DNA from: Peptoniphilus duerdenii ATCC BAA-1640
Lineage (GTDB): Bacteria > Bacillota > Clostridia > Tissierellales > Peptoniphilaceae
Length of the DNA stretch: 64,000 bases
Direction: 5' to 3'
Assembly: GCF_000146345.1 (NCBI RefSeq)
Contig: NZ_GL397071.1
Span: 1,058,620 to 1,122,619, forward strand
Position numbers and translations under genes: made by a program. The notes below the pieces were generated by a model. It saw only the letters and a program-made list of their open reading frames with translations. It searched no databases and was not told where the DNA came from. Below are positions 34,235 through 44,076 of the stretch, one piece after another (positions within the stretch are counted from its first letter, which is position 1; each line of letters begins with the position of its first letter).

Positions 34235-34981
34235 TTGAAAAATATAAAATTATTTTCAGTTGTAGCACTTTCTCTAGCACTTTTAGCTGGATGTTCAAAT
34301 GATAAGCCAGCTAACCAAGGCGCAAACAAACAAAATGCAGGGGCTGCTACAGAAAACAAAGTTGCCTATACTGAAATGGCAGGAGAAGAACTAGATAAGA
34401 TTGAAGAAGATAACAAGGCTAAAGAAAAATACTTAGTTATCGATGTTAGACCAACTGAACAATACAACGAAGGTCACGTTAAACACGCTATCAACATTCC
34501 AGTTGATGAACTAAAAGACAGACTTTCTGAAATCGAATCTTACAAAGATAAAGATGTTGTAACAGTTTGCAATACTGGTAAAAAATCTTCTGAAGCTGCG
34601 CAAATCCTAGTTGACAATGGATTTACAAAAGTTGCTAACGCTCAAGGCGTAAAAGACTTTTCATACACAACTATGACTAAGGCTGCTACAGTTCTTGGAC
34701 CACAGTTCAATGAAATGGCAAAATCAGGAAACTACACAATCATTGACGTAAGAGATGAAAAAGATTACAACGAAGGACACATTGAAGGCGCAATCCATAC
34801 AACAGTTGACACTTACATGGATGATATTAAGAGTTTCCCAACTGACAAACCATTCTTAACCTACTGTTATTCAGGCAATAGATCATGGCAAGTAGCTGAC
34901 GAACTAGCTAAAGAAGGACATGAAGTTTACAATGCGTATGACGGAACAAAAGAATACGACGGATACGAATTGGTAAAATAA
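34235..34981 (+). CDS. Tandem-rhodanese lipoprotein
   Basis: A 248-residue exported lipoprotein with a signal peptide and lipobox LAGC (Cys20), then a low-complexity linker. Two rhodanese domains follow: the first (about 60-145) has VIDVRPTEQYNEGHVKHAIN and active loop CNTGKKS (Cys112). The second (about 150-245) has IIDVRDEKDYNEGHIEGAIH and CYSGNRS (Cys211). Both catalytic cysteines are kept, so sulfur-transfer activity outside the membrane is possible. It starts at TTG 34235 with an excellent AAAGGAGG site. YnjE of E. coli is also an exported multi-domain rhodanese located beside ynjBCD, which appear downstream here. Confidence 0.9.
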   Translation: MKNIKLFSVVALSLALLAGCSNDKPANQGANKQNAGAATENKVAYTEMAGEELDKIEEDNKAKEKYLVIDVRPTEQYNEGHVKHAINIPVDELKDRLSEIESYKDKDVVTVCNTGKKSSEAAQILVDNGFTKVANAQGVKDFSYTTMTKAATVLGPQFNEMAKSGNYTIIDVRDEKDYNEGHIEGAIHTTVDTYMDDIKSFPTDKPFLTYCYSGNRSWQVADELAKEGHEVYNAYDGTKEYDGYELVK

Positions 34982-34989
34982 CTAATTAT

Positions 34990-35024
34990 TAGGCTTTGGG
35001 GATTACTCCAAAGCCATTTTTTTG
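34990..35024 (+). terminator. Terminator between rhodanese gene and the next gene
   Basis: Stem GGCTTTGG / CCAAAGCC (34992-34999 and 35008-35015) followed by ATTTTTTTG. The next coding start (ATG 35029) lies right after the T run, so downstream genes depend on partial read-through or on another promoter. Confidence 0.85.
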
Positions 35025-35028
35025 TATT

Positions 35029-36474
35029 ATGATTATTTTTTTTACAAGAACACCAGAGCTGGGTCAGACGAAAACCAGACTCTCTCCATATTTAAAAGAT
35101 GAGGAGATTTTATCTATTTCGTACAAGTTAATAGAAAATCAGTATCGAGAAATTAAAAATACTGGTGATGAATATAAAATATATTTTAGCGGTAAACTTC
35201 CTGAGGATATAGATAAAAAATATTTAATTCCACAAAGTGGCGATGGTTTAGGAGAAAAGATGGGCAATGCAATCAAATCTGAACTTAAAAATAGAGACAA
35301 GGTTGTACTTTTGGGTTCAGATCTTATAGGTCTAGATTCTACAAAAATAAAAAAATGCCTGGACAAACTAAACGACTACGATGTGGTGCTTGCTCCTACC
35401 TATGACGGTGGATACGGACTAGTTGGAATGAGAAAATACTACGATATTTTTTCGGACATCACCTATTCAAATGGCGAAGTCTTACAAAATACCATAAAAA
35501 GGATTGAAAGTTTTGGACTTAGTTACTACTTGACGGATAAAATTCTGGATATAGATGAGTATGTCGACCTAGTAAGATTTGAAGTGAGAGATAATGATTT
35601 AAAAGTCCTAGGTCAAGGGGAGTACAATCTAAACTTTCTATCTAAGAATCAAGTTATAAGGGTGAACCTCGGTTCCCAGATGCACCTTGGATCTCGCCAG
35701 CTCAAATATGAATATGACGCTCTTAAATTTTTAGAAAAATCAAAAGTTACTCCAGAGCCGATTGATTATATCGAAGATTCTTTTTGGCTCAAAAAACCTT
35801 ATTTAATTATGAAATATTATGAGGGCAGACCCCTCGACTATAAAAAAGATCTAAAAATTGCGGCAAAACTTCTATCTTCCATTCATGGTCTCGATATAGA
35901 AGGATCAGACTTAATCGTGGCACATAGACCATTTAAGGCGATGTACGACGAATTTATATCCATGTACTCCCATTACAAAAGCTTCGACCAAAAAGATTTA
36001 GAAATCGAAAAGAGAATTGACGAACTCTTTAGAATTCTTGAAACTTCCAACATGGATGAAGAGATTTCAAACCCTTCAATTATAAATACGGAACTAAATA
36101 ACCACAATTTTATAATTGGAGATAAAAGTGTGGTAATCGACTGGGAGAAGCCAATCATCGGAGAAGCGGAGCAGGATCTTGCACATTTCTTGGTGCCTAC
36201 TACCACCTATTGGAAGACGGACACAATCCTAAGTGAAGAAGAGATGCTAGATTTCTTAGATGAATACGAAAAATATAGACCTGTGGACAGAAGAAAATTC
36301 TATAAATACTTGATGTTTAATTCTCTAAGGGGAGTTACCTGGTGTTCCATGGCGATGGTTGAATATAGTAAAGATAGAGCGATAAAAAATCTAGATACAG
36401 AGAAAAAGATAAAAGAATATCTCTCAGTAGATTTTTTAGATATGTTAAAGAAACTTTATAAGGAGGATTTATGA
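35029..36474 (+). CDS. DUF2064 (TIGR04282-like) transferase fused to an APH-type phosphotransferase
   Basis: A 481-residue two-domain protein. The N-terminal about 190 residues match DUF2064/TIGR04282 nucleotide-sugar-type transferases: FFTRTPELGQTKTRLSP, VLLGSDLIGLDS, and VVLAPTYDGGYGLVGMRK. The C-terminal about 270 residues look like an aminoglycoside-phosphotransferase/choline-kinase fold, with ATP-site-like LMKYYEGRPL-type IMKYYEGRPLD, a catalytic loop INTELNNHNFIIG and a metal aspartate in VVIDWEKP. The usual HxDxxxxN loop is changed to NTELNNHN, replacing the catalytic Asp by Glu. Role unknown; TIGR04282 proteins are associated with unusual sugar synthesis. Starts right after a terminator; ribosome site weak. 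Confidence 0.82.
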   Translation: MIIFFTRTPELGQTKTRLSPYLKDEEILSISYKLIENQYREIKNTGDEYKIYFSGKLPEDIDKKYLIPQSGDGLGEKMGNAIKSELKNRDKVVLLGSDLIGLDSTKIKKCLDKLNDYDVVLAPTYDGGYGLVGMRKYYDIFSDITYSNGEVLQNTIKRIESFGLSYYLTDKILDIDEYVDLVRFEVRDNDLKVLGQGEYNLNFLSKNQVIRVNLGSQMHLGSRQLKYEYDALKFLEKSKVTPEPIDYIEDSFWLKKPYLIMKYYEGRPLDYKKDLKIAAKLLSSIHGLDIEGSDLIVAHRPFKAMYDEFISMYSHYKSFDQKDLEIEKRIDELFRILETSNMDEEISNPSIINTELNNHNFIIGDKSVVIDWEKPIIGEAEQDLAHFLVPTTTYWKTDTILSEEEMLDFLDEYEKYRPVDRRKFYKYLMFNSLRGVTWCSMAMVEYSKDRAIKNLDTEKKIKEYLSVDFLDMLKKLYKEDL

Positions 36475-37172
36475 AAAAAGAAAACAGAAATAGAATAATA
36501 CTTCTAATTATAATTGGAATATTTTTTGCAGTTTACTTCTTCGTTCCATCTGTAAAAAGAGAAGTAAATGAATCCATAAGAGTGCTTACAAAAGTTGATA
36601 TTAATGGAGTTGCAGAATATATAAGAGGATTTGGAGTATATGCGGTTGTGGTTTCATTCTTACTAATGCTACTTCAATCACTTATTTCGCCTATACCAGC
36701 ATTTTTCATCACCTTATCCAATGCGATGATTTGGGGATGGGCAAAGGGAGCGTTACTATCTTGGTCAAGTGCAATGGTAGGAGCTGCAATGTGCTTCTTT
36801 ATTGCTAGAATCTTGGGTAGAGACGTAGTTAGGAAATTTGCATCAGAAGGAGTTCTAGTAGCGATAGAAGAATTCTTTAAAAAATATGGAAAATATGCAA
36901 TTATGGTAGCGAGACTTCTTCCATTTATACCATTTGACGCAGTATCATATGCTGCAGGATTAACCTCAATGGACTTCTGGGGATTCTTCCTTGCAACAGG
37001 TATAGGACAACTTCCAGCGACAATAGTTTATTCCTATGCAGGTGGAAGCTTGACCGGAGGAGCACAAGCTCTAATGGTAGGACTTTTAATCCTATTTGCA
37101 GCATCAATTATTATCTACGTGGCTAGAAAAATTTACAATGACAAACAAACAGAACGAAATAAAATTAAATGA
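36471..37172 (+). CDS. TVP38/TMEM64 (SNARE-associated, DedA-like) membrane protein, first
   Basis: A 233-residue integral membrane protein. After one N-terminal helix (about 8-26) the VTT-type core has QSLISPIPAFFITLSNAMIW, GWAKGALLSWSSAMVGAAMC, and VARLLPFIPFDAVSYAAGL with the conserved R/P segment (about 143-161). The family includes E. coli YdjX/YdjZ and Bacillus YtxB-like proteins; DedA-superfamily members are linked to lipid scrambling or flipping. It overlaps the fusion gene by four bases (ATGA). Paired with a second homologue next door. Confidence 0.9.
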   Translation: MKKENRNRIILLIIIGIFFAVYFFVPSVKREVNESIRVLTKVDINGVAEYIRGFGVYAVVVSFLLMLLQSLISPIPAFFITLSNAMIWGWAKGALLSWSSAMVGAAMCFFIARILGRDVVRKFASEGVLVAIEEFFKKYGKYAIMVARLLPFIPFDAVSYAAGLTSMDFWGFFLATGIGQLPATIVYSYAGGSLTGGAQALMVGLLILFAASIIIYVARKIYNDKQTERNKIK

Positions 37173-37821
37173 TAGACGCATGAATGCAATTAAGATTACA
37201 ATTATGATCTTGATTGCACTCATTTCTATATTTGTAGTTAGGAAATTCTCCTTTGAAGATATAAAATCATTTGTAGATTCAAATGGACATGTGGCGGCGC
37301 TCTTTTATATCCTTATATTTACAATCCTTCCGGTATTTTTCTTTCCGGTGATAATAATCGTCCTAGTTGGAGGAGCACTATTTGGAATTTGGAAAGGATC
37401 CCTATATACGATGATTGGTGTGGTTTTAAATACGCCAATTATGTACATCATGGGCAGATTTCTCTTAAAGGATTTTGTAAGAAATTTCGTCAATAACCAC
37501 ATGAGTGAGAAGCTATCTTCTGCACTATATAGTGAGAACCAAAAGGTTTTGTCACTAGTTTTATTTATCATAAGGCTTAGCCCGATATTTAGCTACAATG
37601 TGGTGAACTATATCTCTGGAATTACTGAGATAAACTTTTTTTACTACCTTCTTACTACGTTTGCAGGGGTAATTCCAGGGGTATTGGTGTTTAATTATTT
37701 TGGAGAAGCTGTCTTAAATCCGGGATCAAAAGAATTTATCTATTCAATATTATTTTTAATTTCTTTGGTAATAATATCGGCGATAATTTCTAAGCTATTC
37801 TTAAAAGAGGAGAAGAAATGA
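37138..37821 (+). CDS. TVP38/TMEM64 membrane protein, second
   Basis: An about 227-residue membrane protein homologous to the preceding gene: FFFPVIIIVLVGGALFGIWK (about 78-97), TMIGVVLNTPIMYIMGRFLL, and FIIRLSPIFSYNVVNYISG (about 141-159). The start is uncertain: ATG 37138 overlaps the previous gene by 35 bases, ATG 37180 would lie just after its stop, and the open frame extends back to 37096. Two consecutive copies are also present in E. coli as ydjX and ydjZ. It overlaps the glycosyltransferase gene by four bases. Confidence 0.87.
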   Translation: MTNKQNEIKLNDRRMNAIKITIMILIALISIFVVRKFSFEDIKSFVDSNGHVAALFYILIFTILPVFFFPVIIIVLVGGALFGIWKGSLYTMIGVVLNTPIMYIMGRFLLKDFVRNFVNNHMSEKLSSALYSENQKVLSLVLFIIRLSPIFSYNVVNYISGITEINFFYYLLTTFAGVIPGVLVFNYFGEAVLNPGSKEFIYSILFLISLVIISAIISKLFLKEEKK

Positions 37822-38498
37822 AAAAACTTGGTATAGTCATACCAACCTATAACGAAGAAAAAATCATAGATAGAACACAGGAGATGATCTCTCGATTTTC
37901 TGATCTTTGTGATATTGTGTTTTCCGATGGATATTCTACGGATAAAACCTATGAAAAAATAAATTTTAAAAAGATTAAGAGGTCTAGGTACAGATCCAAT
38001 CAGATGAATGAGGGAGCGAAGGAACTTAAAAACGACAAAATTCTTTTTCTCCACGCAGATAGCAAAATTTCTAGAGAAGAAGTACTTGAACTAATAGAAG
38101 AAGATTGTGATTTTGGATGTTTTAGGCTTAAGTTTGAACCGACTTCACTCTTTTTAAAAACTATTGAGTGGGGTTCCAACTTCCGAGTAAAATACAGGCA
38201 CATAGCCTTCGGTGATCAGGGAATATTTATAAAGCGGGAACTCTTTGAAAAAATTGGAGGGTTTAAACCTCTTTCGCTTATGGAGGACTATGAACTCTCT
38301 CTCACCTTAAAAGAAATGGGAATCTATCCAAAACTTCTTGAAAGTGAGATCACCACATCTTCGAGAAGATTTATAAAGGGTGGACCTCTTAAGACATTAT
38401 TTAAGATGCAAAAATACCAAGAGATGTATAGAAAAGCGAGAACAGGTGGAGACATCTACGCCTGTGCAGAAAAAATAGAGGAATTATATAGGAGCTAA
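37818..38498 (+). CDS. TIGR04283-like family 2 glycosyltransferase
   Basis: A 226-residue GT-A glycosyltransferase. The start LGIVIPTYNEEKIIDRTQ carries the nucleotide-sugar motif, followed by VFSDGYSTDKTY, RSRYRSNQMNEGAKEL and the DXD-like FLHADSKIS (about 74-82). The segment AFGDQGIFIKRELFEKIGGF and MEDYELSL match the TIGR04283 rSAM/selenodomain-associated transferase 2 family. TIGR04282 and TIGR04283 proteins are frequent neighbours, and here they share an operon. No membrane helix; acceptor unknown. Confidence 0.85.
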   Translation: MKKLGIVIPTYNEEKIIDRTQEMISRFSDLCDIVFSDGYSTDKTYEKINFKKIKRSRYRSNQMNEGAKELKNDKILFLHADSKISREEVLELIEEDCDFGCFRLKFEPTSLFLKTIEWGSNFRVKYRHIAFGDQGIFIKRELFEKIGGFKPLSLMEDYELSLTLKEMGIYPKLLESEITTSSRRFIKGGPLKTLFKMQKYQEMYRKARTGGDIYACAEKIEELYRS

Positions 38499-38499
38499 A

Positions 38500-39447
38500 A
38501 TGAATGTACTAGAGAAAACGAAAGAAAATTGCATACATTGCAAGAGATGCACCAAAGCTTGCGACTTTTTATCCAAGTACGGTATGGATCTTTCGGATTT
38601 TGCAAATAGACCGGACCTTAGGTACTCCTGTTTTCTCTGTGGCAAGTGCAAGGATGTGTGTCCGGTGGATTTAGACGGTAAAGAAATCTCTCTCTTTATG
38701 AGGAGAAAAAATCCAAAGGGACTTAAATTCGTAAAGTTTATGAAGAACAATTATAAACTTCGAAATATCGGTAAGAAAAAATCTAAAGATCTAATATTTT
38801 TAGGATGTAACTATCCAGGATTTTTACCTAAGACCAGCGAAAAGATAATTGAAATTGGATATGAACATGGAGCGGATTTCTCTGTGGATTGCTGTAAGCG
38901 ACCTACCCATGACATGGGTGGAGAAGCGCCACTTGAAATCTTGGAGAAGAATCTAAAATCTCAAAGTGTAGAGAGAATAATTTGCCTATGTCCAAACTGT
39001 TACCACTTTTTAAAGGGCAAGATCTATGCAGAAGTTATTTCCGTCTATGAATATTTAAGAGAAATTGGAGTTGGAAAGAAAATTGACGAGACTTGCAATG
39101 TATTTTTTCCATGCTCCGACAGATATTCAAGGAAAATCTTCGAAGATATAAAGTATTTTGCAAAAGATTATGAAGAACCATTCACATCCATCGGCTGCTG
39201 TGGTCTCGGAGGAGGAGCCATAAAGCAGGAAGGGGATGTTGTGGATAGATGGAAAGAAAAGATGAATTCCTTGGATAAGGAAAATATATACACCTATTGT
39301 TCTTCCTGTGCGGGGATTTTTCACAATGGGTACAAAAGAGATAATGTGAAGAACTTCTTGACAGAGATACTTGAAGTTGAAGAAGAACCTTCAGAAGAGT
39401 TCGCAAAGAACGTAATGAAATTCAAATTTAAAAAACACAGGAGGTAG
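38500..39447 (+). CDS. Fe-S oxidoreductase, HdrD/GlpC-like
   Basis: A 315-residue cytoplasmic protein. Two [4Fe-4S] ferredoxin motifs lie at the N-terminus: CIHCKRCTKAC (about 12-22) and CFLCGKCKDVCP (about 46-57). The rest has two CCG-like domains seen as VDCCKRPTHDMGG, CLCPNCYHFLKG, then SIGCCGLGGGAIKQEG and TYCSSCAGIFHNGY. That arrangement is the heterodisulfide reductase/GlpC type, moving electrons to a thiol-disulfide or quinone site. E. coli ydjY, between ydjX and ydjZ, is also a ferredoxin-type protein, though I do not claim orthology. It begins one base after the glycosyltransferase stop. Confidence 0.85.
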   Translation: MNVLEKTKENCIHCKRCTKACDFLSKYGMDLSDFANRPDLRYSCFLCGKCKDVCPVDLDGKEISLFMRRKNPKGLKFVKFMKNNYKLRNIGKKKSKDLIFLGCNYPGFLPKTSEKIIEIGYEHGADFSVDCCKRPTHDMGGEAPLEILEKNLKSQSVERIICLCPNCYHFLKGKIYAEVISVYEYLREIGVGKKIDETCNVFFPCSDRYSRKIFEDIKYFAKDYEEPFTSIGCCGLGGGAIKQEGDVVDRWKEKMNSLDKENIYTYCSSCAGIFHNGYKRDNVKNFLTEILEVEEEPSEEFAKNVMKFKFKKHRR

Positions 39448-39448
39448 T

Positions 39449-40726
39449 ATGTTTAACAAGAACTTACTAAAAAAATTATCAGTATTTATGTTAGCGGTAT
39501 TTTTATTGGTGGGATGTGGCAAGTCTGAAAAACCACAAAACAATGCGGCAAATAAAAATAACACAAATCAAACTGAAACTGCAAAAGACGCAGCAGATAT
39601 GACTTTTGAAGAAGCATTAGAATCTGCAAAAGGAAAGACCGTTAACTTCTATGGATGGGGTGGAGATGAAAAGAGAAACAATTGGATCGACAACTCTATC
39701 GCACCTAAGATGAAGGAAAAATATGACATCACAGTGAACAGAGTTCCAATGGACATCGACGAAATCAACAACCTTCTTCTAAACGAAAAGAATGCAGGTA
39801 AGGATGGTTCAATCGACGTTATCTGGATCAATGGAGAAAACTTCGCAGCAGCTAAGAAACAAGATTTTCTATTCGGACCATTTACTGACAAACTTCCAAA
39901 CTTTAAAGACTATGTAGATGGAGAATCTGCAGACGTGAAATATGACTTCGGTGAACCAACTGAAGGACTAGAAGCTCCATATGGAAAGGCACAATTCGTA
40001 TTCGTTTACGACAGTGCAGTAATTCCAAACCCACCTAAGAATGCGGAAGAACTTCTAGAAGTAGCAAAAGCAAACCCAGGCAAATTAACCTACGCAGCTC
40101 TACCTGATTTCACAGGTTCAGTGTTCGTTAGACAAATTATGTCAGATTTACAAGGCTACGAACAATTCATGGACAAGAATCTTACACAAGATAAACTTGC
40201 AGAAATGATGAAGCCAACAATTGACTATCTAAATGAACTTAAACCATACCTATGGAAGGAAGGTAAGACCTATCCATCAGACAATCCAACTCTTACAAAT
40301 ATGTTCTCTGACGGAGAAGTTGCAATGGCAATGAGCTACAATCCAAACCAAGCATCAATGCTGATTAACGATAAAAAAGCACCAGCAACCACTAGATCAT
40401 TTGTCTTTGACAAAGGAAATATAGGTAACACCCACTTCCTTGCAATTTCTAAGATGAGTCCAAACAAAGACGCTGCAATGGTATTTATAAATGAAATCCT
40501 AGCACCAGAAAATCAAATTGAAAAGGCTGACCCAGCAGTGCTTGGAGATCTACCTGTAGTAAGCTACGACAAATTAACTGACGATCAAAAGAAGCTTTAT
40601 GATTCAATAAATATCGGGGAAGCAACCATCCCTTACAACGAACTTGACGCTAAGAAAGTACCGGAAATGCCGGCACAACTAGTACCATTAATTGAAAAGA
40701 TATGGGAAGAAAACGTACTAAATTAG
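39449..40726 (+). CDS. YnjB-type ABC substrate-binding lipoprotein
   Basis: A 425-residue lipoprotein with lipobox LVGC (Cys23) and an N/K/T linker. The mature body resembles E. coli YnjB (COG4134): GKTVNFYGWGGDEKRNNWI, DVIWINGENFAAAKK, YGKAQFVFVYDSAVIPNPP, LPDFTGSVFVRQIM and PYLWKEGKTYPSD all have YnjB counterparts. The ligand of this family is not established. It starts one base after the Fe-S gene with AGGAGG and is followed by two permeases and an ATPase, so it is the capture subunit of a complete importer. Confidence 0.9.
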   Translation: MFNKNLLKKLSVFMLAVFLLVGCGKSEKPQNNAANKNNTNQTETAKDAADMTFEEALESAKGKTVNFYGWGGDEKRNNWIDNSIAPKMKEKYDITVNRVPMDIDEINNLLLNEKNAGKDGSIDVIWINGENFAAAKKQDFLFGPFTDKLPNFKDYVDGESADVKYDFGEPTEGLEAPYGKAQFVFVYDSAVIPNPPKNAEELLEVAKANPGKLTYAALPDFTGSVFVRQIMSDLQGYEQFMDKNLTQDKLAEMMKPTIDYLNELKPYLWKEGKTYPSDNPTLTNMFSDGEVAMAMSYNPNQASMLINDKKAPATTRSFVFDKGNIGNTHFLAISKMSPNKDAAMVFINEILAPENQIEKADPAVLGDLPVVSYDKLTDDQKKLYDSINIGEATIPYNELDAKKVPEMPAQLVPLIEKIWEENVLN

Positions 40727-41559
40727 ATTTATCATACCTGCCGGGAATCGCACTAATCGCTGTGGTGATTCTCGGCGGTTTTATAAAATCTATTATTATA
40801 TCATTTGGATTTTACAAAGAAATAGGGATAAGTGAATTTACAACCAAGTACTACAGAGAGATTTTAACTTCCAAAGGATTTTTAAATTCTCTTTTTTTCA
40901 CATTTAAATTCGCTGCAATTTCATCTATCTTGGCGGTAATAATCGGACTATTTATGGCATATGGAATCTATTTTTATAAGAAAAAATCTTCCTTTAGCTT
41001 AAATATTCCTATGATAATACCCCATATGATCGTGGTGGTAATACTTTTAAATCTATTTTCTGAAGCAGGATTATTTTCAAGAATTTTAGCAAATCTTGGA
41101 ATAATAGATAGTCCGCATAAGTTCGTTCCGCTATTTTATACAAAGAGTGCCATAGGAATAATCCTCGTATATATTTTTAAAGGAGCACCATTTGCGGCGG
41201 TGGTATTCTTAAATGGAATTAATAAAATCGGAATGGAACAGTTTAGTGCAGCTAGGAATTTGGGAGCAACAGAAAGTTACGCCTTCTACCACATCTACTA
41301 CAAGAGGGTCAAATCTTCTCTGTTAAAAGTGCTTTTAATACTATTTACATTTTCCATGTCATCCTACGAAGTCCCATACCTAATTGGGCCTACGACACCT
41401 CGCGCAATTGCGGTGAAATCCTATATAGAATTTACGCAAAATGATTTTATCTACAAACCATATTCCTTGGCTTATAACGTAATTCTTGGGCTCATTGGAA
41501 TAGTTACGGTAATTGTATTTTTGATGTTGGAGTTTAAAGATGATGAAGACTTTATCTAA
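40702..41559 (+). CDS. YnjC-type ABC permease, N-terminal half equivalent
   Basis: A 285-residue permease with about six helices. The N-terminal LPGIALIAVVILGGFIKSII is the first helix, and the ABC coupling loop reads FSAARNLGATESYAFYHIYY (about 181-200). E. coli YnjC is a single protein with two such units; here they are two adjacent genes, this being the first. It overlaps the binding-protein gene by 25 bases (ATG 40702 behind GAAAAGA), and the next permease overlaps it by 20. Confidence 0.88.
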   Translation: MGRKRTKLDLSYLPGIALIAVVILGGFIKSIIISFGFYKEIGISEFTTKYYREILTSKGFLNSLFFTFKFAAISSILAVIIGLFMAYGIYFYKKKSSFSLNIPMIIPHMIVVVILLNLFSEAGLFSRILANLGIIDSPHKFVPLFYTKSAIGIILVYIFKGAPFAAVVFLNGINKIGMEQFSAARNLGATESYAFYHIYYKRVKSSLLKVLLILFTFSMSSYEVPYLIGPTTPRAIAVKSYIEFTQNDFIYKPYSLAYNVILGLIGIVTVIVFLMLEFKDDEDFI

Positions 41560-42331
41560 GACATTTGTAAATATTTTAATATTTTTACTGTGCTACACGG
41601 CGATTACTCTTACATTGGGAGTGTTTCGAGAAAGCTATCCATATCCTGTGATCTTTGGCGGTACATTTTCAACAAGGGCGATCGAATATTTAAAAGTAGA
41701 CAGAAATCTTTTAAATTCCATTGTAAATTCTATGGTAATAGGCACCATCTCCACATTTATAGCAACATTTTTAAGTTACTTTGTAGCAAGGAGAATAAGC
41801 ACCAATAGAAAGTTTAAAAAACTTCTCATGGCGGTGGTATTTCTACCGATGGTAGTATCTGCAACATCCATTGGAATTGGGCTCCAACTAATATTTATAA
41901 AACTTGGCATGGCAGGTAAGATTCCTGCGATAATTCTTGTGCACATAGTGTATATAATTCCATATTCAGTTTGGATTATGATACCAGGATTTGAAAGTTT
42001 CGATGAGGATCTCTACAATCAAGCGAGAATCCTAGGAGCGTCGAAATTAAAAGCGACGGTAAATTCCATACTCGTTCATATGTTTTCATTTATAAAGACA
42101 TCCATCATCATGGGATTTATCCTTTCCTTCTCCCAATATTATTTGACCTTGGTACTTGGAATAGGAATGGTAAACACATTTACTCTACTTTCATTCCCAT
42201 TTATGGTGGTAAAAGATAGGAGTATAACCGCTGTCATGAGTATAATATTTATTCTTTTAAATGTACTATTTATCCTTGGAATAGAACTTATTTCAAAAAT
42301 AATTATAAGGAGCAAAAAATGGCATATATAG
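41540..42331 (+). CDS. YnjC-type ABC permease, C-terminal half equivalent
   Basis: A 263-residue permease. Hydrophobic helices alternate with a coupling loop LYNQARILGASKLKATVNSI (about 154-173). Helix AVVFLPMVVSATSIGIGLQL and the C-terminal helices fit the binding-protein-dependent transport family. It completes the heterodimeric channel with the preceding gene. Two adjacent ATG codons (41540, 41543) are possible starts. It overlaps the ATPase gene by 13 bases. Confidence 0.9.
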   Translation: MMKTLSKTFVNILIFLLCYTAITLTLGVFRESYPYPVIFGGTFSTRAIEYLKVDRNLLNSIVNSMVIGTISTFIATFLSYFVARRISTNRKFKKLLMAVVFLPMVVSATSIGIGLQLIFIKLGMAGKIPAIILVHIVYIIPYSVWIMIPGFESFDEDLYNQARILGASKLKATVNSILVHMFSFIKTSIIMGFILSFSQYYLTLVLGIGMVNTFTLLSFPFMVVKDRSITAVMSIIFILLNVLFILGIELISKIIIRSKKWHI

Positions 42332-43236
42332 AACTTAGAAATATTACAAAATCCTATGGAGATAGAATGATATTAAAAGATATTTCCTTTGATATAAACG
42401 AAGGGGAAACTATCTCCATAGTGGGACCATCGGGTACGGGAAAATCTACACTTCTTAGAATTATTTGCGGAATACTTGAAGAGGATGGCGGAAGTATAAC
42501 GGTGGCGGGAGAAAATCTCTTGAATTTGCCACCAGAAAAGCGAAACACCCTTATGATGTTTCAAAACTTTGAACTATTTCCACATCTCACAGTGTGGGAC
42601 AATGTGGCATTTGGTCCAAGGGCAAAAAAGATGAAGAAGGATGAAATATTTAAAAAGGTAGAATACTTTTTGGACTTAGTTGACCTAAACCATAGAAAAA
42701 ACGCCTACCCAAAAGATTTATCAGGAGGGGAAAGACAGAGGGTCGCACTTATAAGATCACTTATAAATGAACCGAAGATGCTACTTCTCGATGAACCATT
42801 TTCAAGTCTAGATGAAATACTTAGAGACAGGGTGAGAAAATCCACCTTTGAAATTCTACAAGATCTAAAGATCTCTACACTTTTCGTAACCCACAGCATC
42901 GAAGAAGCTTCTATGTATTCAGATAGAGTTATCGTCATGCAAGAAGGAAGAATCATAGGAATAGGAACTCCAAAAGAACTATACGAACACCCAAGTTGCA
43001 AAGAAGTTGCAGAATTTCTATATAAAGAAAATGTCTTTGACGATTACTTTTTAAAGAAGGAAGATATTAAAATAAAACTGGGAAGCGAATATAGTATAGA
43101 TAGAAAAAGTTTTGTGAATGGAGAGTATAGGTACGAAATCGGAAAATATATAGCTTATAGTAGCGATGAATATAATCTCGGAGACGAAGTAGATTTAGAA
43201 ATAAAGAGGAGAGCATATGAAAAAAGTACTTGTTGA
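42319..43236 (+). CDS. YnjD-type ABC ATPase
   Basis: A 305-residue ATPase of the importer. Walker A GPSGTGKSTLL (about 35-45), Q-loop MMFQNFELFPHLTVWD, signature DLSGGERQRVALIR (about 133-146), Walker B KMLLLDEPFSSLDE, and switch LFVTHSIEEA are clear. A C-terminal extension of about 80 residues follows the core; it may be a regulatory domain. Tight overlap with both neighbours. Confidence 0.93.
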   Translation: MAYIELRNITKSYGDRMILKDISFDINEGETISIVGPSGTGKSTLLRIICGILEEDGGSITVAGENLLNLPPEKRNTLMMFQNFELFPHLTVWDNVAFGPRAKKMKKDEIFKKVEYFLDLVDLNHRKNAYPKDLSGGERQRVALIRSLINEPKMLLLDEPFSSLDEILRDRVRKSTFEILQDLKISTLFVTHSIEEASMYSDRVIVMQEGRIIGIGTPKELYEHPSCKEVAEFLYKENVFDDYFLKKEDIKIKLGSEYSIDRKSFVNGEYRYEIGKYIAYSSDEYNLGDEVDLEIKRRAYEKSTC

Positions 43237-44029
43237 TTTTGACAACACCATAAATGTGAGGGGCTGTGACATAGACGATGCTTTTGCATTATTTTTTCTA
43301 CTGAGCCATAAAGATGTGGAAGTAGTGGGAATAACCACCACATTTGGAAATAGTAACGAAGACGATACCTACAACTCAACCGTTATGATGAATAATGACC
43401 TTGGAATAGAAATTCCTCTTAAAAAAGGCGGAATATATTCCTACGATGCTGCAAAATTTATAAAAGAAAAAGTTGAAAGAGAAAAGGTAAGTTTAATCTC
43501 CCTGGGCTCCACAACAAATACTATGAAGGCTCTCGCCCTTGGAATGGATACGAAAAATCTTACTGAATTTGTACAAATGGGAGGCATTACATCTCCACTA
43601 TATTTTAAAGGGATGGTAATGGATGAGCTTAATATGTCCATAGATTTTCTTGCCACCAACTACGTATTAGAAAGAATCGAGAAACCTGTAATAATCACAG
43701 GCAATAATTGTATCGAAAAGAAGTACAAAGTTAAAGATGGAGAGTATGTTTCAAAATATATGAAGTATCTCGACTCTCACATGCGTCGCTGGAAGGCAGA
43801 GTTTGAAGTAAAATATAAAGAAGAAGAACTAGTAATATGGGACGCACTAACTGCCCTATATGTAACCAATCCAGAATTTTTTGAAATAGAGAAGAGAAAG
43901 ATAAGACTTGGAGAAAATATGATGACCGGATACTTGGAAGAAGGAGAGGACAAGGAAATCCTCATCCCTCGATTAAAAGATACGGTGGACGCAATGGAAT
44001 ATATAGTAAGCACCATTGAAAACAATTAA
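43217..44029 (+). CDS. Nucleoside hydrolase family protein, variant active site
   Basis: A 270-residue IunH-family protein, enzymes that split ribonucleosides into base and ribose using a calcium held by an aspartate cluster. The usual N-terminal DTDPGxDD is here spread out: LVDFDNTINVRGCDIDDAFA, an insertion of several residues between the first Asp and the DD pair. GNSNEDDTYN and VQMGGITSP are family-like, and VIWDALTALYV resembles the conserved WDxxA region near the C-terminus. Last gene of the ynjBCD-like operon, overlapping the ATPase gene by 20 bases. A salvaged ligand of nucleoside type is plausible, unproven. Confidence 0.85.
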   Translation: MKKVLVDFDNTINVRGCDIDDAFALFFLLSHKDVEVVGITTTFGNSNEDDTYNSTVMMNNDLGIEIPLKKGGIYSYDAAKFIKEKVEREKVSLISLGSTTNTMKALALGMDTKNLTEFVQMGGITSPLYFKGMVMDELNMSIDFLATNYVLERIEKPVIITGNNCIEKKYKVKDGEYVSKYMKYLDSHMRRWKAEFEVKYKEEELVIWDALTALYVTNPEFFEIEKRKIRLGENMMTGYLEEGEDKEILIPRLKDTVDAMEYIVSTIENN

Positions 44030-44049: not shown

Positions 44050-44076
44050 TTGCACGAGAGATCGTGCTTTTTTTAT
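44050..44076 (+). terminator. Terminator of the ynjBCD-like cluster
   Basis: Stem GCACGA-gaga-TCGTGC with seven T (44052-44074), soon after the nucleoside hydrolase stop. Confidence 0.88.

Follow-up and report, generated by a model that had tools for sequence, protein, structure and literature searches.

In Peptoniphilus duerdenii ATCC BAA-1640, a member of the Bacillota with a genome of 2.12 Mb, a 64,000-nucleotide stretch of contig NZ_GL397071.1 (positions 1,058,620 to 1,122,619; the window, hereafter) carries eleven open reading frames at 34235-44029, all on the forward strand, that bring together a YnjBCD-type importer, a variant nucleoside hydrolase (NH) and the TIGR04282 and TIGR04283 proteins of arsenosugar operons (Table 1). 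Families were assigned with Pfam and NCBIfam profiles, and the named ones exceed their curated cut-offs; from 36471 onward, consecutive genes are separated by 1 base or overlap. Both the gene inventory and the tight packing given in the initial annotation were thus borne out. Comparison with related loci revealed two exclusive exchanges: of NH for a CDP-alcohol phosphatidyltransferase (CDP-AP) beside the importer, and of importer and NH for a radical S-adenosylmethionine (SAM) enzyme beside a shared core.

Table 1. Genes and hairpins of the unit, with positions in the window
Feature	Position	Strand	Evidence
Tandem-rhodanese lipoprotein	34235..34981	+	PF00581, two stretches
Intrinsic-terminator-like hairpin between the rhodanese and DUF2064-kinase genes	34992..35015	+	consensus match only
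TIGR04282/DUF2064 CofC-like nucleotidyltransferase (N-terminal) fused to APH-fold kinase (C-terminal)	34996..36474	+	PF09837, PF01636, TIGR04282
TVP38/VTT protein 1	36471..37172	+	PF09335, 99 bits
TVP38/VTT protein 2	37096..37821	+	PF09335, 74 bits
TIGR04283 family-2 glycosyltransferase	37818..38498	+	187.3 bits vs cut-off 182
HdrD/GlpC-like Fe-S oxidoreductase	38500..39447	+	4Fe-4S ferredoxin domain and two CCG motifs
YnjB-family solute-binding lipoprotein	39449..40726	+	NF008633 (PRK11622), 469.4 bits vs 203
ATP-binding cassette (ABC) permease 1	40702..41559	+	PF00528 (BPD_transp_1)
ABC permease 2	41540..42331	+	PF00528 (BPD_transp_1)
ABC ATPase	42319..43236	+	PF00005, 126.9 bits
Variant NH	43217..44029	+	PF01156 (IU_nuc_hydro), 83.5 bits vs 34.2
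Intrinsic-terminator-like hairpin, end of unit	44052..44067	+	consensus match only

The first of the two hairpins, a strong one (10 pairs, 6 of them GC, followed by a T run; ATTTTTTTGT) lies directly after the rhodanese stop codon and overlaps the TTG at 34996, the nominal start of the DUF2064-kinase gene; judging from the sequence, that gene probably begins at the ATG at 35029 instead. Because a terminator-like hairpin follows the rhodanese gene, the main transcript probably spans the genes from DUF2064-kinase to NH. The rhodanese may be expressed from its own or an attenuated transcript; relatives within the Peptoniphilaceae keep it within the same operon. The true start of the second TVP38/VTT protein is probably also later than the TTG at 37096. 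An Rfam search of the window region returned no match at E ≤ 1, and with it no riboswitch clue to the ligand; searches of the relatives returned only T-box, SAM riboswitch, tRNA and PyrR-site matches, none of them directly upstream of the unit.

NH shares both its fold and its Ca-site Asp residues with the IU-NH family (RihA, RihC and plant NRh2b/NRh3). Its AlphaFold model is a confident nucleoside-hydrolase fold (predicted local distance difference test, pLDDT, 93.5) that Foldseek matched to nucleoside hydrolases (TMq 0.84), and D7, D9, D20, D21 and D209 are invariant. However, alignment with Escherichia coli RihA and RihC revealed a 7-residue insertion in the Ca loop between DxD and DD, deletion of the active-site flap region (approximately 25 residues), and replacement of the His-Asp (His241-type) of pyrimidine/IU enzymes by Trp-Asp in all intact members. 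As judged from alignment and model, this more open and altered active site would fit an unusual substrate, without identifying it. Loss of the canonical Asn that contacts the 5'-OH was considered as evidence of a 5' modification and set aside as a weak hint, the column being variable (K, A, N, G). At one locus (L061, 13394-14275), the NH gene beside YnjBCD is broken by an in-frame TGA and is probably a decaying copy; selenocysteine was rejected as a reading of this codon because it sits at a Trp position, where a nonsense change is more likely.

The DUF2064 and APH domains occupy a single reading frame of 492 residues (TIGR04282, 142.8 bits against a cut-off of 134) in which the PxxGxxKxRL, GxD and DxGY motifs are conserved; in other lineages each domain is encoded by a gene of its own, the two genes being neighbours. 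This fusion here and adjacency elsewhere link the kinase with the nucleotidyltransferase. A kinase is likewise coupled to a nucleotidyltransferase in AmgK-MurU and FKP, pairs that make nucleoside diphosphate (NDP)-sugars, although their sequence families differ from that of the DUF2064-kinase; among APH-fold kinases, NahK, AmgK and MtnK phosphorylate an anomeric hydroxyl. The kinase domain, for which a sequence search against the PDB returned no meaningful match, keeps the Mg-binding Asn (within NTELN in the window) and the DWE motif across 16 aligned sequences. Conserved motifs of the TIGR04283 protein (DGxSxD, HxD, GD and a C-terminal D), common to loci with a radical SAM enzyme and loci with the importer, are by sequence those of a nucleotide-sugar-using family-2 glycosyltransferase. 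The Fe-S protein, with its cysteines at C103, C131C132 and C164xxC167 and again at C205, C233C234 and C267xxC270, has the ferredoxin domain and paired CCG motifs also found in HdrD and GlpC. Both domains of the rhodanese (118.9 bits to PF00581) have a cysteine at the CxxGxxS position; the protein falls under the cut-off of NF045521 'rhoda_near_glyco' (80 versus 145).

Homologues of the eleven genes were found to cluster in Anaerococcus, the loci of which group with the YnjB of the window, in Terrisporobacter and Clostridium, and more divergently in Vagococcus. Co-occurrence was assessed in 398 Bacillota and 130 Peptoniphilaceae genomes, where the P values are inflated by the relatedness of the genomes, a kinship addressed in part by the trees described below. 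Among the Bacillota, YnjB exceeded its cut-off in 30 genomes and TIGR04283 in 26, and the NH profile matched 15; NH is a discrete subfamily, all 15 genomes scoring E ≤ 1e-88 with nothing else under 1e-30. YnjB and NH were found together in nine genomes (1.1 expected; P = 8e-8), YnjB and TIGR04283 in seven (2.0 expected; P = 0.0016), and TIGR04283 and NH in seven (1.0 expected; P = 1e-5). Among the Peptoniphilaceae, YnjB was detected in 13 genomes, NH in 16 and the kinase in 27; NH was present in 12 of the 13 YnjB genomes, always within 5 kb by coordinates (1.6 expected; hypergeometric P = 8e-13), and the kinase in all 13 (2.7 expected; hypergeometric P = 8e-11). The refuting condition set in the initial annotation, that these families rarely co-occur beyond chance, was thus not borne out. 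The eleven genes behave as one functional unit, and their clustering is not a matter of chance.

No partner accompanies this version of YnjBCD more constantly than NH. The two occur without the other parts on a megaplasmid of Peptoclostridium acidaminophilum, the YnjB of which is 51% identical to that of the window. Where the importer is absent, NH adjoins the DUF2064-kinase fusion in two genomes of one genus, both closest to Anaerococcus (L123 and L124), and by itself follows the core at a third locus (L125), in the genus of loci L143 and L128 discussed below.

The first exchange was recognized at 38 YnjB loci of the Bacillota with readable context, where NH is present in 15 and a YnjF-type CDP-AP in 20, with neither in three and both in none (Fisher 5e-8). 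The kinase, DUF2064 and TIGR04283 genes go with NH, except at one locus (L048), where all three accompany CDP-AP. On the YnjB tree, the NH and CDP-AP labels require six changes, of which at least four are forced by well-supported branches. Outside the Bacillota, the CDP-AP version was found in E. coli, on a Klebsiella IncR plasmid, and in Ilyobacter, Pseudoalteromonas and Aliiroseovarius; of five annotated plasmid loci there, CDP-AP is present in four and NH in none, and in Deinococcus a lysophospholipid acyltransferase lies beside YnjB. On the Klebsiella plasmid (L116), the YnjBCD-CDP-AP cluster is accompanied by a TVP38/FAD-oxidoreductase fusion, DoxX, DUF692 and a sigma factor, and plasmids of Salmonella, E. 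coli, Citrobacter and Providencia encode a YnjB that is likewise 67% identical to that of E. coli (hits H6-H18).

The YdjXYZ-YnjABCDEF system of E. coli is widespread and uncharacterised. Its genes (ydjX-ydjY-ydjZ-ynjA-ynjB-ynjC-ynjD-ynjE, an order in agreement with the initial annotation, with ynjF at the end, on the opposite strand) share with the window a TVP38 pair, an Fe-S protein, a YnjB-family protein, ABC components and a rhodanese. The E. coli cluster encodes YnjF, YnjA and, as its sole permease, the large YnjC, whereas the window unit has two permeases and no YnjF-type CDP-AP; conversely, DUF2064, the kinase, TIGR04283 and NH, all present in the window, are missing from the E. coli cluster. 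To act on the presumed ligand, each version has a different enzyme. FNR activates the ydjXYZ-ynjABCD and ynjE promoters (PMC3688515), pointing to anaerobic use of the E. coli system.

The second exchange involves the radical SAM enzymes of arsenosugar-type operons. ArsS adenosylates arsenic, according to work cited in PMC12159101. The DUF2064 and TIGR04283 proteins of ArsS-TIGR04282-TIGR04283 gene sets are the same as those that exceed their cut-offs in the window unit, and arsenosugar loci of sister species have the TVP38, Fe-S, rhodanese and C-GCAxxG-C-C neighbours of the importer operons; these loci carry ArsS and a TIGR04169 peroxidase-like protein, whereas the window unit has YnjBCD and NH in their place. 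A total of 49 DUF2064/TIGR04283 loci (48 and that of the window) were compared: 22 encode a radical SAM enzyme, 20 YnjBCD and/or NH, seven neither and none both (Fisher 3e-8); as these loci were collected partly through YnjB and NH searches, the proportions should not be taken for population frequencies, although such sampling does not produce the zero count of double loci. The core that they share comprises the rhodanese, DUF2064-kinase, two TVP38 proteins, TIGR04283 and the Fe-S protein, often with a C-GCAxxG-C-C protein. Three of the seven loci with neither (L134, L136 and L140) belong to genomes with a YnjBCD-NH operon elsewhere (L133, L135 and L139, respectively), as does L096, the separate operon of which (L044) includes a kinase.

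TIGR04283 loci in genomes without YnjB, together with that of one genome which has YnjB (G086), mostly carry a radical SAM gene, encoding either ArsS or a BioB-like protein, and TVP38, C-GCAxxG-C-C, YdjY and TIGR04169 proteins recur at these radical-SAM loci. ArsS (TIGR04167; 387 bits for a representative, against a cut-off of 300) exceeded its cut-off in 11 of the 398 Bacillota genomes, nine of which have TIGR04283 (0.7 expected) and none YnjB (0.8 expected). The exchange is best seen at two loci of one genus within the family of the window. The locus closest to that of the window, L143, has the order rhodanese, DUF2064-kinase, VTT1, VTT2, TIGR04283, Fe-S protein, C-GCAxxG-C-C protein, YnjB, permease, permease, ATPase and NH, which is the order of the window with one gene added, C-GCAxxG-C-C. 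At L128, the same genes through C-GCAxxG-C-C are followed by the TIGR04169 protein (CMD; 161 bits) and ArsS (407 bits versus 300), the modules being exchanged in the same operon slot. Because the kinase tree requires eight changes of the importer-NH label, of which well-supported branches account for at least five, and three of the ArsS label (at least two on such branches), this exchange happened more than once. At four further loci (L081, L084, L086 and L090), a BioB-like radical SAM enzyme takes the place of ArsS beside DUF2064 and TIGR04283, possibly representing a different 5'-modification.

Within the genome of the window, ArsS (TIGR04167) gave no match at E ≤ 1e-20 and ArsM none over its cut-off (best 53 bits versus 263), and a strict label of arsenosugar biosynthesis was consequently rejected. 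Also dropped was a scenario in which ArsS loci have no kinase since the sugar 1-phosphate comes from a phosphorylase, the ArsS loci of the Peptoniphilaceae keeping their kinase. We know of no established steps of arsenosugar assembly after ArsS.

From the observed gene content, conserved linkage, motifs, and module exclusivity and swapping, we infer the individual reactions, ligand, acceptor and direction of flow as follows. With about even confidence, we propose that these genes form a version of the arsenosugar-type operon (ArsS/TIGR04282/TIGR04283) that lacks ArsS and is fed by import. YnjBCD would import a ribonucleoside that probably carries a modification at the 5' position or close to it; if ArsS and the YnjBCD-NH module do supply the same core, a comparable ribonucleoside is the simplest candidate for the imported ligand. 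The variant NH would then cleave off the base and free the ribose part, which the APH-fold kinase would phosphorylate at the anomeric carbon, in the manner of NahK, AmgK and MtnK. The fused nucleotidyltransferase would convert this sugar phosphate to an NDP-sugar, from which TIGR04283 would transfer the sugar to an acceptor, plausibly a lipid, which the two TVP38 proteins would move across the membrane. The rhodanese, the HdrD-like Fe-S protein and, in relatives, the C-GCAxxG-C-C protein would supply sulfur transfer or thiol redox. Hints of a lipid acceptor come from the TVP38 proteins, from CDP-AP as the alternative enzyme and from flippase-like neighbours. The single nucleoside- or sugar-ligand pathway of the initial annotation is thereby kept in part: the genes are one unit, and a nucleoside/sugar pathway is favoured by the constancy of NH as a partner, by the minimal operon of NH and YnjBCD, and by the exchange of importer and NH with ArsS. 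Its view of the transferases and hydrolase as simple additions to a YnjBCDE system did not hold, given that NH excludes CDP-AP at the YnjB loci of the Bacillota, and that importer and NH exclude ArsS or the BioB-like enzyme in the DUF2064/TIGR04283 operon. A more specific and rather doubtful version is that YnjBCD and NH salvage exogenous arsenosugar-type (5'-substituted) ribosides in replacement of ArsS, and that the YnjF-type transferase of E. coli anchors the same class of ligand to lipid.

A number of observations weigh against the import-fed proposal. Since most YnjB relatives (20 of the 38 loci) carry CDP-AP rather than NH, a nucleoside ligand may not apply throughout the YnjB family; NH is missing from the unit at two loci (L055 and L130); and in genome G346, the only one of the Bacillota seen with both, ArsS (in three copies) and NH occupy different loci (L101 and L082). 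The kinase has Glu (NTELN or NTEVN) in place of the catalytic Asp of HxD in all 16 aligned sequences, and the case for a lipid acceptor consists wholly of family associations (TVP38, CDP-AP and flippase-like neighbours). The YnjB model is of moderate confidence (pLDDT 75.6), and the fold search does not discriminate between ligands: neighbours in fold bind polyamines, iron, sugars and others, and solute-binding proteins for different ligands score alike. Prediction of the ligand from the YnjB fold was dropped for these reasons, and a sequence search of the PDB with YnjB found only maltose-binding proteins (7e-6).

Other features bear on the chemistry of the ligand. SelD is present in the genome of the window, and the sulfur-transfer and redox partners would also be compatible with sulfur or selenium in place of arsenic; with its radical-SAM alternatives including a BioB-like type, the core may accept several 5'-substituted sugars. 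YedE-like transporter halves and a TusA-like protein recur beside YnjB loci (L044, L046, L048, L051 and L058), most of which also have a LysR of the selenium-associated type near YnjB. At L042 (6479-18021), YnjBCD, the kinase and NH were read from the sequence between MoeA-like and MoaA/MoaC/MogA-like genes, beside an apparently truncated ModA, and at L055 (18149-19588) a nicotinate phosphoribosyltransferase-like gene follows the unit.

Ordinary nucleoside scavenging, in which YnjBCD and NH import and split a common nucleoside for its base and the sugar module uses plain ribose, would accommodate both the nucleoside hydrolase fold of NH and the minimal NH-YnjBCD operons without a sugar module (L115 and L061). 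We consider it unlikely, however: exchange with ArsS, whose product is a 5'-modified adenosine, implies a role for the sugar part, NH stays with the DUF2064-kinase fusion where the importer is absent, and it is unlike RihA and RihC at the flap, Ca loop and His-Asp. It is less likely still that YnjBCD carries a non-nucleoside (an oxyanion, thiosulfate, a metal or a lipid precursor) and that its neighbours belong to sulfur/selenium or molybdenum-cofactor metabolism. The recurrence of rhodanese, TusA-like, YedE-like and LysR proteins near YnjB, the position of L042 inside a molybdenum-cofactor gene cluster, the annotation of E. coli ynjE as a molybdopterin synthase sulfurtransferase, and the prevalence of CDP-AP over NH at YnjB loci are all consistent with such a role, but the close linkage of NH to YnjB in the Peptoniphilaceae and the minimal NH-YnjBCD pair argue against it. 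Degradation or detoxification, with an arsenosugar- or drug-like riboside taken up and dismantled and the transferases tagging the waste sugar for export, appears improbable; while importer and hydrolase are catabolic in character and the redox and rhodanese proteins would fit, activation by kinase and nucleotidyltransferase followed by glycosyl transfer is an anabolic route, and the same core accompanies a biosynthetic radical SAM enzyme. Finally, a chance gathering of unrelated cassettes at one site is very hard to credit, for although order and orientation vary between genera, the order is fixed in several of them, reading frames overlap, module exclusivity is strict and hypergeometric P values fall below 1e-10.

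No paper linking YnjB, NH and TIGR04282/TIGR04283 was found in the openly licensed literature and, as far as that searchable literature shows, both module swaps are new. Where a genome lacks ArsS, TIGR04282 and TIGR04283 proteins cannot safely be named arsenosugar glycosyltransferases by automatic annotation. The swap with ArsS suggests what the ligand of the importer looks like: an exclusive exchange on one conserved core leads to the predictions that this YnjB clade binds a riboside, that NH has ribosidase activity and that, downstream, kinase, nucleotidyltransferase and glycosyltransferase act in that order. If the salvage of 5'-substituted ribosides with lipid anchoring by YnjF were true, it would provide a first function for the YdjXYZ-YnjABCDEF system.

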